Made by a program: the position numbers and the translations under genes. A stretch of 64,000 bases of DNA from Streptomyces exfoliatus (GTDB lineage Bacteria > Actinomycetota > Actinomycetes > Streptomycetales > Streptomycetaceae): contig NZ_JNZP01000001.1 in assembly GCF_000725545.1 (NCBI RefSeq), forward strand, positions 186,001-250,000. The letters are read 5' to 3'. Positions 50,951 through 60,360 of this stretch are shown in pieces. Numbering within the stretch: position 1 is the first letter of the stretch; each line of letters starts with the position of its first letter. Below the pieces are notes generated by a model. That model was not told where the DNA came from. It did no database searches and saw only the letters and a list, made by a program, of their open reading frames with translations.

Positions 50951-56236
<5,286 letters not shown>

Positions 56237-56242
<6 letters not shown>

Positions 56243-56865: not shown

Positions 56866-57198
56866 ATGCCGCAGATCACCGTCGACTACTCCGCGCCCCT
56901 CGACCGGCGCGGCTTCGCGCTCGCCCTGCACCCGCTCGTCGCCGAGACGGTCGACACGACGATCGACGCCTGCAAGACCCGGTTCCGGGAGATCGAGGAG
57001 CTGGTCGTCGGCGACGGGTCGACCGACGACGTCATCGTGCACGTCGAGATCGCCCTGCTGTTCGGCCGCACCGACGAGGTCAAGGCGCGGCTCTCGAAGG
57101 CCGTCCTCGCCCTGCTGCCGGAGTACCTCAAGGCGACGGAGGGCGTACGCCTCTCCGCGGAGGTCCGCGATCTCGAATCGTCCTACCGCAAGCGCTGA
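56866..57198 (+). CDS. 5-carboxymethyl-2-hydroxymuconate isomerase-like tautomerase
   Basis: This 110-residue protein starts MPQITVDYS, so Pro2 would become the N-terminal catalytic proline after Met removal, as in CHMI enzymes. The C-terminus LSAEVRDLESSYRKR also matches the family. CCGGAGGCAC precedes the ATG. No other homoprotocatechuate pathway genes are near, so the natural substrate is uncertain. It overlaps the convergent TetR gene by 16 bases. Confidence 0.85.
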   Translation: MPQITVDYSAPLDRRGFALALHPLVAETVDTTIDACKTRFREIEELVVGDGSTDDVIVHVEIALLFGRTDEVKARLSKAVLALLPEYLKATEGVRLSAEVRDLESSYRKR

Positions 57199-57905
57199 CC
57201 GGGGACGGCGGACAGCGTGGGCATCAGCGCGACGAGCCGGGCGACGAGCTCCCCGAAGGGACCGTCGGCCGGCTCGTCCGCGAGGACGCCGACGAGGATG
57301 TCCGCCGTCTCCTGGTCGTAGGCGGCACTCACCGCGGCGAGCGCCGCGAAGTCGTGCACGAGCTGCAACTCCAGCTCCGCGCGCGGCACCCGGCGCCCGT
57401 CCAGCCACAGGAGCGCCGTCGACTCGGCGAGCGACACCCACGAGCGGACGACCAACTCGAGCCGCGCGGACGGCTTCCTGACCCGCAGATGGGCCAGGAT
57501 CTGCTCGTACGCGGCCTGCCGCACCTCGTCGATCATCGCGTTCGTCGTGGAGGAACCCACCGCGGGCCCGCCCCGCATCAGCGCCGCGAACCCCGGGCCG
57601 TGCTCGTCCACGAAGTCGAAGAACCGGCCCATCACCCGCAGCAGCCGTGCCCCGAGGGGCCCCTGGGGCGGCTCCACGAACCTGGCCGCCAGCTCGTCGG
57701 CGGCCCGGCGCAGCGCCGCCTCGTAGAGGCTCTGCTTGCCGGGGAAGTAGTGGTAGACCAGCGGCCGCGAGATGCCCGCGGCGGCGGCGATCTCGTCGAT
57801 GGAGACCTCGTCGGGAGAGCGGTGGCTGAAGAGTTCGAGAGCCACCCCGATCAACTGCTGCTTGCGCTCCTCGACGCCCATCCTGCGGCGTACCCCGGTC
57901 GTCAT
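57183..57905 (-). CDS. TetR-family regulator
   Basis: This 240-residue protein has an N-terminal HTH: VSIDEIAAAAGISRPLVYHYF with the following GKQSLYEAAL. The ligand domain is long and helical. A perfect CTAACGG-n3-CCGTTAG palindrome lies ten bases upstream of its start, in the gap to the divergent membrane-protein gene. Autoregulation and control of the divergent gene are likely; control of the nearby diiron/reductase pair is possible. Confidence 0.92.
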   Translation of the reverse strand: MTTGVRRRMGVEERKQQLIGVALELFSHRSPDEVSIDEIAAAAGISRPLVYHYFPGKQSLYEAALRRAADELAARFVEPPQGPLGARLLRVMGRFFDFVDEHGPGFAALMRGGPAVGSSTTNAMIDEVRQAAYEQILAHLRVRKPSARLELVVRSWVSLAESTALLWLDGRRVPRAELELQLVHDFAALAAVSAAYDQETADILVGVLADEPADGPFGELVARLVALMPTLSAVPGQRLR

Positions 57906-57914
57906 ACGAACAGC

Positions 57915-57931
57915 CTAACGGGGTCCGTTAG
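57915..57931. promoter_or_regulatory. Palindromic TetR operator candidate
   Basis: CTAACGG-GGT-CCGTTAG has perfect 7-bp arms and a 3-base spacer. It is centred in the 37-bp gap between the TetR gene and the divergent gene, so repressor binding would block both. Confidence 0.82.
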
Positions 57932-57942
57932 TGTGCTGCTTC

Positions 57943-58362
57943 ATGAGCGCTTCCGACCAGGACACCACGGCCGCCGGGGCCCAGGAGGCCGCGGAGGCCT
58001 CCGAGGGCGACGAGAACGGCGAGACCAACGAAGAGATCTCCGGCGAGGAGACCTCCGACGAGGAGGGCCCCGGCGAGGAGGGCCCCGGCGAGGAGGGCCC
58101 CACTTCGGGTCTCACGCCCAAGCAGGCGCGGCGACTGCGCGTCGCCGCCGCCTCCGTGCTGCTCGTGGCGATGGCCGTGGTCCTCGTCGTCCGCCTCGCG
58201 AGCCGGACGTCCGTCCTGGTCGTCGGCGTGTACGGACTCGCCATGATCCTCTGCGGGATCGTGATCGAGCTGTCCCGCAACGGCCGTACGCGGCTTGCGA
58301 CCTGGCTCCTGGTGGCAGGCCTGGCCGCCGCCCTCGCCTTCGACTGGCTCATCCTGCCCTGA
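57943..58362 (+). CDS. Small acidic-tailed membrane protein
   Basis: This 139-residue protein has a very acidic N-terminal half (about 1-60, Glu/Asp/Gly-rich, with GEEGP repeats encoded by three 15-bp units at 58060-58104). Two or three helices follow (VAAASVLLVAMAVVLVVRLA, VLVVGVYGLAMILCGIVIEL, WLLVAGLAAALAFDWLIL). A GTG at 57931 is in frame but falls within the operator. It is divergent from TetR and ends three bases before the convergent reductase gene. Function unknown. Confidence 0.82.
   Translation: MSASDQDTTAAGAQEAAEASEGDENGETNEEISGEETSDEEGPGEEGPGEEGPTSGLTPKQARRLRVAAASVLLVAMAVVLVVRLASRTSVLVVGVYGLAMILCGIVIELSRNGRTRLATWLLVAGLAAALAFDWLILP
58060..58104. repeat. Three 15-bp tandem repeats in the acidic membrane protein gene
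   Basis: Units of GAGGAGGGCCCCGGC (last copy ends CACT) repeat in frame and encode EEGPG. They extend the acidic cytoplasmic tail. Confidence 0.85.
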
Positions 58363-58365
58363 CGC

Positions 58366-59421
58366 CTACAGGTCGAGGACGAGCCGCTCGCCCGCGCAGC
58401 GCGAGACGCAGATCAGCATCGAGTCGTCCCGCTCGGCATCGGTGAGCAGGTCGTCCCGGTGGTCGATCTCGCCCTCCAGGACGTGCTGTCTGCAGGTTCC
58501 GCAGAACCCCTGCCGACAGGAGTACATGAGACCGGGGACCTCTTCGCGGACTGCCGCGAGCACCGACTGGTCGGCCGCCACCGTCACCGTGCGTCCCGAG
58601 CGGCGCAGTTCGACCTCGAAGGCGGTGCCGCCGGTCGTCGCCGCGGCCGAGAAGCGTTCGAGGAGCGGCGTCCGGCCCTCCGGCATCGCCGCCGCCACCG
58701 CGTCCATGAGGCCCTCGGGGCCGCAGCAGTACACGAGGGTCTCGGCGGGGACGTGCCCGAGGAAGCCGAGGTCGGGGTAGCCCGACTCGTCCTCGGCGAC
58801 CACCGTCACGCGGTCGCCGCCAAGCGCCTCGATCTCCTTCAGATACGGCAGGGTGGCCCGACTCCGCCCGCAGTACACGAGCCGCCAGTCCGCCCCGGCC
58901 GCCTCGGCGGCGCGCAGCATCGGCAGGACCGGGGTGATGCCGATGCCGCCGACGACGAAGACGTACGCGGGGGCCCCGAGGAGCGGGAAGCGGTTGCGCG
59001 GGCCCCGGATCTCGATCTCCAGGCCCTCGTGGAGCCGCTCGTGGACCTCGCGCGAACCGCCCCCGCCGTCCTCGATGAGACGCGTGGACACGGTGTACGA
59101 GGAGAGGTCGGCCGGATCGCCGCAGAGCGAGTACTGCCGGACGAGCCCGGAGGGCAGGACGAGGTCGATGTGGGCGCCCGGCTGCCAGGCGGGCAGGTCC
59201 CGTCCCGCGAGGCGGAGTTCGACGACGCCGTCGGCGGGCGTGGCGCGGCCGGTCACCCGGACCTTGCGGGGGACGGTGCTGCCCCGGCCGTAGCCGGACA
59301 CGGGCTCGTCGAGCGCGGGCATCGGCCACAGCGGGGCCGTGGACATGCGGCTGCGGACGGCCCGGCGGACGAGCAGCGCGGCGGCCCCGGCGGCGAGGGC
59401 GACGGTGGTGAAGCGGGGCAT
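58366..59421 (-). CDS. FAD/[2Fe-2S] oxidoreductase, phthalate-dioxygenase-reductase type
   Basis: This 351-residue reductase has an N-terminal hydrophobic stretch and Arg cluster (about 1-24) that may anchor it. The FAD site is RQYSLCG, the NAD(P) site VVGGIGITPVLPM and the C-terminal plant-type ferredoxin has Cys302-x4-Cys307-x2-Cys310-x27-Cys338. Its ATG overlaps the stop of the upstream diiron gene (TGATG), so the two are translationally coupled. It should pass electrons from NAD(P)H to a partner oxygenase, most plausibly the coupled PF10118-type protein. Confidence 0.92.
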   Translation of the reverse strand: MPRFTTVALAAGAAALLVRRAVRSRMSTAPLWPMPALDEPVSGYGRGSTVPRKVRVTGRATPADGVVELRLAGRDLPAWQPGAHIDLVLPSGLVRQYSLCGDPADLSSYTVSTRLIEDGGGGSREVHERLHEGLEIEIRGPRNRFPLLGAPAYVFVVGGIGITPVLPMLRAAEAAGADWRLVYCGRSRATLPYLKEIEALGGDRVTVVAEDESGYPDLGFLGHVPAETLVYCCGPEGLMDAVAAAMPEGRTPLLERFSAAATTGGTAFEVELRRSGRTVTVAADQSVLAAVREEVPGLMYSCRQGFCGTCRQHVLEGEIDHRDDLLTDAERDDSMLICVSRCAGERLVLDL

Positions 59422-60305
59422 CAGCGGCCTCCGTTGGCGCCGGGGGAGGAGGCCAGGTAGGCCGTGGCCTGCGCGGTGTCGCCCTCCTGGGAGGGGTGGT
59501 AGGCGCGGCTGAGGTAGCGGGGTATCGAGCGCAGCATGGCGGGGGTGGAGGGCAGCACACCCTGCCGGCCCTTGCGGATGAACTGGCCGAAGGAGGCCTT
59601 GCCGTCGAGGAGCGTCGGGTCGTTCTCCATGAAGAAGCGGACGCCACGCTGCCAGAGGAAGAGGAGCGTGGAGAAGGCGAGCGCCCAGGTGCGGGCGCGG
59701 CGCCGGTAGCCGCCGTCGAGGTGCATGAAGAGCTCGAAGGCGACCGAGCGGTGCTCGACCTCCTCCGCGCCGTGCCAGCGCAGCAGGTCGAGCATGACGG
59801 GGTCGGCGCCGACCCGGTCGAGCTCGTCGGCGTTGAGGACCCAGTCGCCGAGGAAGGCGGTGTAGTGCTCGATGGCGGCGATCATCGCGACCCGCTCCAT
59901 CAGCCACCAGCGACGCGGCCGGCCCGGCGGCAGGGTCCGGTCCCCGAGGAGCTTCTCGAAGAACCAGTCGACCTGGGCGGTGTACGGGGTGGGGTCGAGG
60001 CCCTGCGCGCGGAGGTGCGGGAGGACGTCGTCGTGGGCCTGGGAGTGGACGGCCTCCTGGCCGATGAACCCGATGACGTCCGCGCGCAGCCGGTCGTCCG
60101 TGATGTACGGCAGCGCCTGCTTGTAGACGTGCACGAACCAGCGTTCGCCGGCCGGGAGCAGCAGGTGCAGCACGTTGATGGTGTGCGTGGTGAAGGGATC
60201 GCCGGGCACCCAGTGGAGGGGGGTCTCGTCCCAGTCGAAGGAGACCTTGCGGGCCTTGAGCTCGACGTGCTCCGACGCCACCGGTGCAGGCTGCGTATTA
60301 GACAT
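59421..60305 (-). CDS. PF10118-type protein with ferritin-like diiron ligands
   Basis: This 294-residue helical protein belongs to the family annotated as 'predicted metal-dependent hydrolase' (PF10118). Yet its carboxylate/His pattern is that of diiron oxygenases: Glu54 (GERW), Glu84-x2-His87 (EAVH), Glu146 (IEHY) and Glu182-x2-His185 (EEVEH). A hydrophobic segment (TWALAFSTLLFLWQRGVRFF) suggests membrane association. It is directly coupled to a flavin/[2Fe-2S] reductase, which argues for an oxygen-activating hydroxylase or desaturase rather than a hydrolase. The substrate is unknown, perhaps a lipid or hydrophobic compound. Confidence 0.88.
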   Translation of the reverse strand: MSNTQPAPVASEHVELKARKVSFDWDETPLHWVPGDPFTTHTINVLHLLLPAGERWFVHVYKQALPYITDDRLRADVIGFIGQEAVHSQAHDDVLPHLRAQGLDPTPYTAQVDWFFEKLLGDRTLPPGRPRRWWLMERVAMIAAIEHYTAFLGDWVLNADELDRVGADPVMLDLLRWHGAEEVEHRSVAFELFMHLDGGYRRRARTWALAFSTLLFLWQRGVRFFMENDPTLLDGKASFGQFIRKGRQGVLPSTPAMLRSIPRYLSRAYHPSQEGDTAQATAYLASSPGANGGR

Positions 60306-60360
60306 GGCGTCAATGTACTGAGAGGTACGGCGATGGCAACAGGCCTGTGCACCCGATTAT

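Follow-up and report, generated by a model that had tools for sequence, protein, structure and literature searches.

The window, by which we mean the whole 64,000-nucleotide stretch of Streptomyces exfoliatus DNA that was analyzed, carries on its reverse strand a PF10118 ('Metal_hydrol') gene (59421..60305, 294 aa), the product of which we propose to be a ferritin-like diiron oxygenase, followed by a PDR/VanB-type reductase gene (58366..59421, 351 aa) whose start codon shares 1 nt with the stop codon of PF10118. The coordinates, frames and stop/start overlap that the original prediction had given for this pair were confirmed, the single nucleotide common to both genes lying within TGATG, where the stop TGA occupies 59423-59421 and the ATG 59421-59419. 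The first protein matched PF10118 in Pfam at E=4e-77 (259.7 bits, above the gathering cut-off of 33.2), and the reductase matched Fer2 (E=1.4e-12) and NAD_binding_1 (E=1.7e-6). A search of the window's genome found no second PF10118 gene and only one further reductase-like gene, at 40 bits. Beyond the reductase lies a gene for a TetR-family regulator (TetR_N + TetR_C_46; 57183..57905, reverse strand), a candidate regulator of the pair, and between the two, on the forward strand, a gene for a small protein (57931..58362) with a Glu/Gly/Pro-rich N-terminus and a hydrophobic C-terminal part. The small-protein gene was found in some of the closest relatives only and is probably outside the function of the pair; a run of repeated Glu-Glu-Gly-Pro units stands ahead of the hydrophobic part of its product.

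The putative metal site was examined in an alignment of 248 sequences, made up of the window's own and 247 further PF10118 proteins, which came from 243 of the 245 loci surveyed. Only two ExxH motifs occur in the window protein, E84xxH87 and E182xxH185, and their Glu and His residues, together with E54, E146, H178 and E181, are invariant in all 248 sequences; H91 is conserved in 247, and position 83 is Gln in 243 and Glu in the other five. The invariant Glu and His residues of a smaller alignment (30 sequences) agreed with this set, and the conservation of the ligands is more than chance would produce. All six residues that had been predicted as ligands (Glu54, Glu84xxHis87, Glu146 and Glu182xxHis185) stand at their predicted positions and are identical in 248/248 sequences, although as a list they were incomplete, omitting H178, which precedes the Glu of the second ExxH by four residues. 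We propose E54, E84, H87, E146, H178, E182 and H185 as the ligands, with Q83 and E181 as second-shell residues; it is the inclusion of H178 that would complete the 3-His/4-carboxylate set of AurF, CmlI and DnfA.

Because no significant sequence relative was found among solved structures (one match, E 0.97), fold and profile comparisons were used. The predicted model of the PF10118 protein (pLDDT 92) places one ligand group on each of four long helices, and this modeled four-helix bundle, with E, ExxH, E and ExxH contributed one group per helix, is the ferritin-like diiron pattern. The best 50 of 404 Foldseek matches were all proteins that, by their titles and families, we take to be diiron or ferritin-like, with AurF at rank 32; AurF was absent among the 50 VIA matches listed. 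A membrane-associated oxygenase, as had been suggested, is not supported by the sequence, as the PF10118 protein has no long hydrophobic stretch (highest 19-residue hydropathy, 1.23) and only the N-terminus of the reductase is mildly hydrophobic.

The AurF-type enzymes (AurF, CmlI, AzoC and DnfA; PF11583) resemble PF10118 in their ferritin-like four-helix bundle and in the order E...ExxH...E...HxxxExxH, which supplies three His and four carboxylates, although sequence similarity between the two families is at the detection limit. The DnfA ligands are given as Glu88, Glu123, His126, Glu182, His209, Glu213 and His216, a set said to be the same for AurF and CmlI, in one report (PMC9478400), and these seven ligands are also printed for AzoC in another (PMC6783550). 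When PF10118 was aligned by hhalign with an AurF profile built from 19 of 26 PF11583 matches, the partial ones being excluded, the score was 32.7, with an E value of 0.0008 for a single comparison and a probability of only 24%, against a maximum of 21.0 for 59 column-shuffled profiles and 23.1 for a reversed profile; a 30-sequence PF10118 profile gave probabilities of 3% and 7%. Residues E84/H87 and H178/E181/E182/H185 fell on AurF-family columns in three of three alignments and E54 in two of three, while E146 was one residue off its column in two and lay outside the third. A Pfam scan at E <= 1 reported no PF11583 match for the window protein, which may work like AurF yet is not filed as a member of that family. 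The families also differ immediately before the first ExxH, where Asp or Glu stands in all 19 sequences of the AurF family whereas 243 of 248 PF10118 sequences have Gln (Glu in five), and PF10118 is further set apart by the near-invariant H91 and by the linkage of some of its clades to EphD and M24 genes.

The reductase is laid out as a flavin domain (RQYS), an NAD-binding domain (GGIGIT, CGP) and a C-terminal plant-type [2Fe-2S] domain (C302, C307, C310 and C338). Its closest solved relatives are P450-fused reductase domains (6KBH, 6LAA) and phthalate dioxygenase reductase (2PIA), which aligned over 279-309 residues at E values of 1.5e-44 to 4.4e-60 and have the same flavin-NAD-[2Fe-2S] order with RxYS, GGIGIT, CGP and CX4CX2C...C. 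Enzymes of this type serve a Rieske oxygenase or a P450, whereas the window reductase adjoins a PF10118 gene, and it differs from them further in a short, mildly hydrophobic N-terminus. The flavin of phthalate dioxygenase reductase is FMN. Since this FMN enzyme is among the closest solved relatives, the FAD of the original prediction is doubtful and the flavin is probably FMN; the NAD and [2Fe-2S] domains that completed the predicted reductase are both in place. Among 90 reductases beside PF10118 genes, RxYS was found in 90, GGIG in 87, CGP in 90 and the [2Fe-2S] cysteines (CX4CX2C...C) in 86.

Neighbor frequencies were drawn from 157 PF10118 copies (27 + 50 actinobacterial and 80 from Pseudomonadota) sampled regardless of their neighbors, with the window copy excluded, the short fragments L203 and L254 dropped and one below-cut-off place left out; a named-locus set, the best 80 of 595, did not enter the frequencies. 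A reductase was called at >=60 phmmer bits to the window reductase, no more than 1.5 kb away and on the same strand, a rule by which a very different donor would be missed. By this rule a reductase stands beside 45 of 77 actinobacterial copies and none of the 80 Pseudomonadota copies and, when copies are ranked by identity to the window PF10118 protein, beside 33/33 at >=70%, 12/42 at 40-60% and 0/82 below 40%. Because coupling is complete in the first of these groups and absent from the last, it is a trait of an actinobacterial clade. The survey of PF10118 neighborhoods that had been put forward with the original prediction therefore upholds the association for the close copies of this clade, and finds the family at large rarely reductase-linked; coupling as a general PF10118 rule was rejected, given its absence from the Pseudomonadota copies and from a second Streptomyces clade. 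That the reductase is specific to the PF10118 gene at this locus is supported by the presence of just one other such gene in the genome, at 40 bits, and by its adjacency in every one of the 33 close homologs. Fixed stoichiometric coupling, which had been read from the overlap of the genes, does not follow from it, as overlapping frames do not set stoichiometry. An in-frame start overlapping the stop was present in 32 of 88 surveyed pairs, the start lying within 30 nt in 21 and farther away in 35. Among 245 loci, no PF10118 protein was fused to a reductase or to EphD. Clustering of neighboring open frames in 36 chosen loci, a noisy procedure with a 110-aa floor in which most clusters are unannotated and antisense frames cluster too, confirmed PF10118, the reductase, EphD and M24, returned a flavin monooxygenase in 4/36 and identified no further partner gene.

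Of the 157 copies, 29 have a full EphD-type epoxide hydrolase-SDR fusion no more than 3.5 kb away on their own strand (22/77 actinobacterial, 7/80 Pseudomonadota). The 40-60% identity group, 42 copies in all, accounts for 28 of these 29, and the 33 closest copies for none. Partial matches comprised five with the hydrolase part only, four with the SDR part only and one that was unclear; a match confined to the alpha/beta-hydrolase half of the probe, seen in those 5/157 surveyed copies, was also seen in 12/83 copies in named loci, and a gene of this kind is possibly an unfused version of the EphD partner. Both fusions that were tested scored above the curated cut-off of NCBIfam NF004514, and 71 of 73 fusions have an HDW-type Asp nucleophile motif. 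A reductase and a full fusion occur together at 18/247 copies (3/157 in the surveyed sample), at loci that include named Dietzia, Saccharopolyspora, Kutzneria, Saccharothrix, Nocardia, Nocardiopsis and Streptomyces. Whereas EphD (NF004514) is linked to PF10118 in these other clades, the window gene row is without it, and the one EphD homolog of this genome, at 47% identity to the Dietzia probe, is on another contig. Among 61 Streptomyces genomes, EphD accompanies PF10118 in each of the 43 that have PF10118, and PF10118 is missing from all four that lack EphD; among the 18 without PF10118, EphD is still present in 14. Mycobacterial EphD, which has the same two-domain layout, is reported to hydrolyze 9,10-epoxystearate and, when overproduced, to lower epoxymycolates (PMC7998700). 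In the second Streptomyces clade, in Burkholderia, in Ralstonia and in some Pseudomonas, M24-family and EphD-type genes lie directly upstream of PF10118, and a Rhodococcus fascians plasmid carries PF10118, a reductase and a limonene-epoxide-hydrolase-domain gene in a row.

We consider it highly likely that the PF10118 protein is a diiron, O2-activating, reductase-driven enzyme and not a hydrolase. The iron content, oxygen chemistry, electron path, product type, substrate and repression that we infer for the pair can be joined in one putative cycle, in which electrons from NAD(P)H would pass through the flavin (probably FMN) and the [2Fe-2S] center to the Fe(III)Fe(III) form of an AurF-type 3-His/4-carboxylate site, the diferrous site would then bind O2, and a peroxo or high-valent species would oxidize a hydrophobic substrate, perhaps an acyl-chain or other lipid-like one. 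The outcome would most likely be mono-oxygenation to an epoxide or alcohol, which in some relatives may be handed on to the EphD-type fusion encoded alongside, and in the window's genome to the unlinked EphD homolog, while the local TetR protein would probably repress the pair through a conserved promoter element. Epoxidation or hydroxylation is favored because of the EphD link, and a lipid epoxidase or hydroxylase is our favored guess; the assignment of the product as an epoxide or alcohol is made tentatively and stops somewhat short of probable. A broader reading, that PF10118 is a large unrecognized branch of O2-dependent diiron enzymes that acts on lipid C-H/C=C bonds and has a Gln second shell like that of CylC, driven by a dedicated reductase in an actinobacterial clade and feeding EphD-type fusions in several clades, is in our judgment quite doubtful.

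The same type of diiron site could instead perform N-oxygenation in the manner of AurF, CmlI and DnfA, or radical C-H functionalization, including halogenation, in the manner of CylC and NocO; here the core would be as we propose and the product would differ. This is possible, if unlikely. N-oxygenation would be consistent with the seven-ligand set, equal to that described for DnfA/AurF/CmlI (PMC9478400) and AzoC (PMC6783550), and with the DnfA cluster, which according to the first of these sources also encodes an FNR/[2Fe-2S] reductase, DnfB (PMC9478400). The case for halogenation is drawn from Q83. According to one report, CylC and NocO have nine conserved active-site residues, including QExxH, HxxDExxH and two further Glu, with Gln in place of the AurF Asp, and NocO, supplied by NADPH, ferredoxin and a ferredoxin reductase, introduces chlorine at the terminal carbon of a C12 chain carried on ACP (PMC12101540). 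Judged by motif against this printed description rather than against a CylC sequence, QE84xxH87, H178xxE181E182xxH185, E54 and E146 of PF10118 are identical at 8/9 of these positions, and the exception is residue 181, which is Glu in PF10118 and Asp in the halogenases. The substrate of NocO is moreover an ACP-bound fatty acyl chain, whereas neither a carrier protein nor an amine-pathway partner was identified near PF10118 in the 36-locus clustering, in which clusters were mostly unannotated and the 110-aa floor misses small carriers. The EphD linkage would also better suit an epoxide or a similar product.

It is improbable that the protein is a desaturase with a diiron site, or a ferritin/R2-like protein without catalytic activity, whether a radical generator or one that handles iron or peroxide. 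The original prediction had offered a hydroxylase or a desaturase; the proposed metal site resembles those of AurF and CylC. An R2 profile (14 matches) did score 22.9 against PF10118, over a shuffled maximum of 16.7, which is weaker than the AurF comparison, and three strong R2 sequences alone gave 17.5, below a control of 20.1; an acyl-ACP desaturase (PF03405) profile of seven sequences only scored 15.8, under its shuffled maximum of 21.5. The His that precedes the second ExxH by four residues, a proposed ligand in PF10118, was present in 10/10 PF11583 matches above 120 bits, in 0/9 weaker ones and in none of the three R2 proteins and six desaturases inspected. A dedicated reductase, for its part, would fit turnover rather than storage.

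That PF10118 is a true metal-dependent hydrolase, with the reductase an accidental or regulatory neighbor, is very improbable and was rejected, as nothing beyond the name speaks for it, namely the family label on most named entries among the 120 database matches listed and a network analysis, the one paper found to name PF10118, that places the family among protease groups (PMC8960859), while the ferritin-like predicted fold, the invariant Glu and His residues in a diiron arrangement and the retention of the reductase in 33/33 close relatives, despite the scarcity of genes of this kind in the genome, speak against it. The data thus support diiron redox chemistry as fitting far better than hydrolysis, and the original prediction was right to suspect that the hydrolase name misleads, since predicted fold, invariant ligands and AurF alignment all favor diiron chemistry: the 'metal-dependent hydrolase' label points the wrong way. 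At least 4,568 related database proteins, among 7,999 candidates scored, match at E <= 0.001. No diiron or oxygenase claim for PF10118 was found in the literature searched, a search with some narrow queries and with most subscription papers outside its scope. If a reductase-driven diiron oxygenase is the correct reading, the PF10118 name should change, the two genes offer a simple system in which such oxygenases can be tested, and EphD-type enzymes gain a concrete upstream candidate; on the broader reading, PF10118 would supply the EphD group with a missing partner that forms epoxides or else functionalizes C-H bonds by radical chemistry, possibly by halogenation. For most epoxide hydrolases of mycobacteria the native substrate has yet to be established, according to PMC7998700.

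The putative repression of the pair would act through a promoter/operator-like element at 60310..60330 on the reverse strand (window, CCGTACCTCTCAGTACATTGA; consensus, nTACCCGTCAGTACATTGAC), which ends 3 nt before the ATG of the PF10118 gene and forms an imperfect TAC...GTA inverted repeat. At its place, GTACATTGAC is present in 56/56 relatives of >=65% identity, and 53 of these 56 have a homolog of the window's TetR gene no more than 2 kb downstream of PF10118. The matrix for the element was trained on the same 56 sites, so that its 56/56 is a description and not a test; a weaker match occurs in 8 of 241 other loci scanned. In the window's genome the element has a single exact match, and allowing <=2 mismatches adds one, at about 20507 of the window; this was taken as chance, and a wider regulon was rejected. 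The element is a candidate TetR site, likely to form a local repressor-operator pair with the neighboring regulator. Across the 56 close relatives, the DNA that takes in 60310-60330 and the first codons of the PF10118 gene (GTACATTGACnnnATGTC) hardly varies, less than the protein would seem to require, and may act as both operator and translation-initiation signal.

Several further arrangements were seen around PF10118. Next to EphD and PF10118, a gene resembling M24-family metallopeptidases recurs as a third partner (loci L080, L081, L084, L088, L041 and L047-L060). PF00743-type flavin-binding monooxygenase genes lie beside PF10118 at loci L046, L087, L181, L186, L190, L255, L258, L275 and L277, which belong to a Marinobacter plasmid and to actinobacterial and Pseudomonadota genomes and in several cases have SDR genes too. 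On an Acinetobacter haemolyticus plasmid (L045, 1874-9474), PF10118 adjoins a ferredoxin-P450-FAD oxidoreductase set along with TetR, BtrH-like and two PaaI-thioesterase genes in a row, and PF10118 copies were seen on 54 Acinetobacter plasmid records. Some Pseudomonadota genomes (G356, a member of the Moraxellaceae with locus L083, G357, G435, G550 and G389) hold 6 to 14 PF10118 paralogs, which suggests diversified substrates. Elsewhere in the window, a 1763-aa open frame at 50951-56242 reads as a putative secreted double glycoside-hydrolase of amylase/pullulanase-like type.
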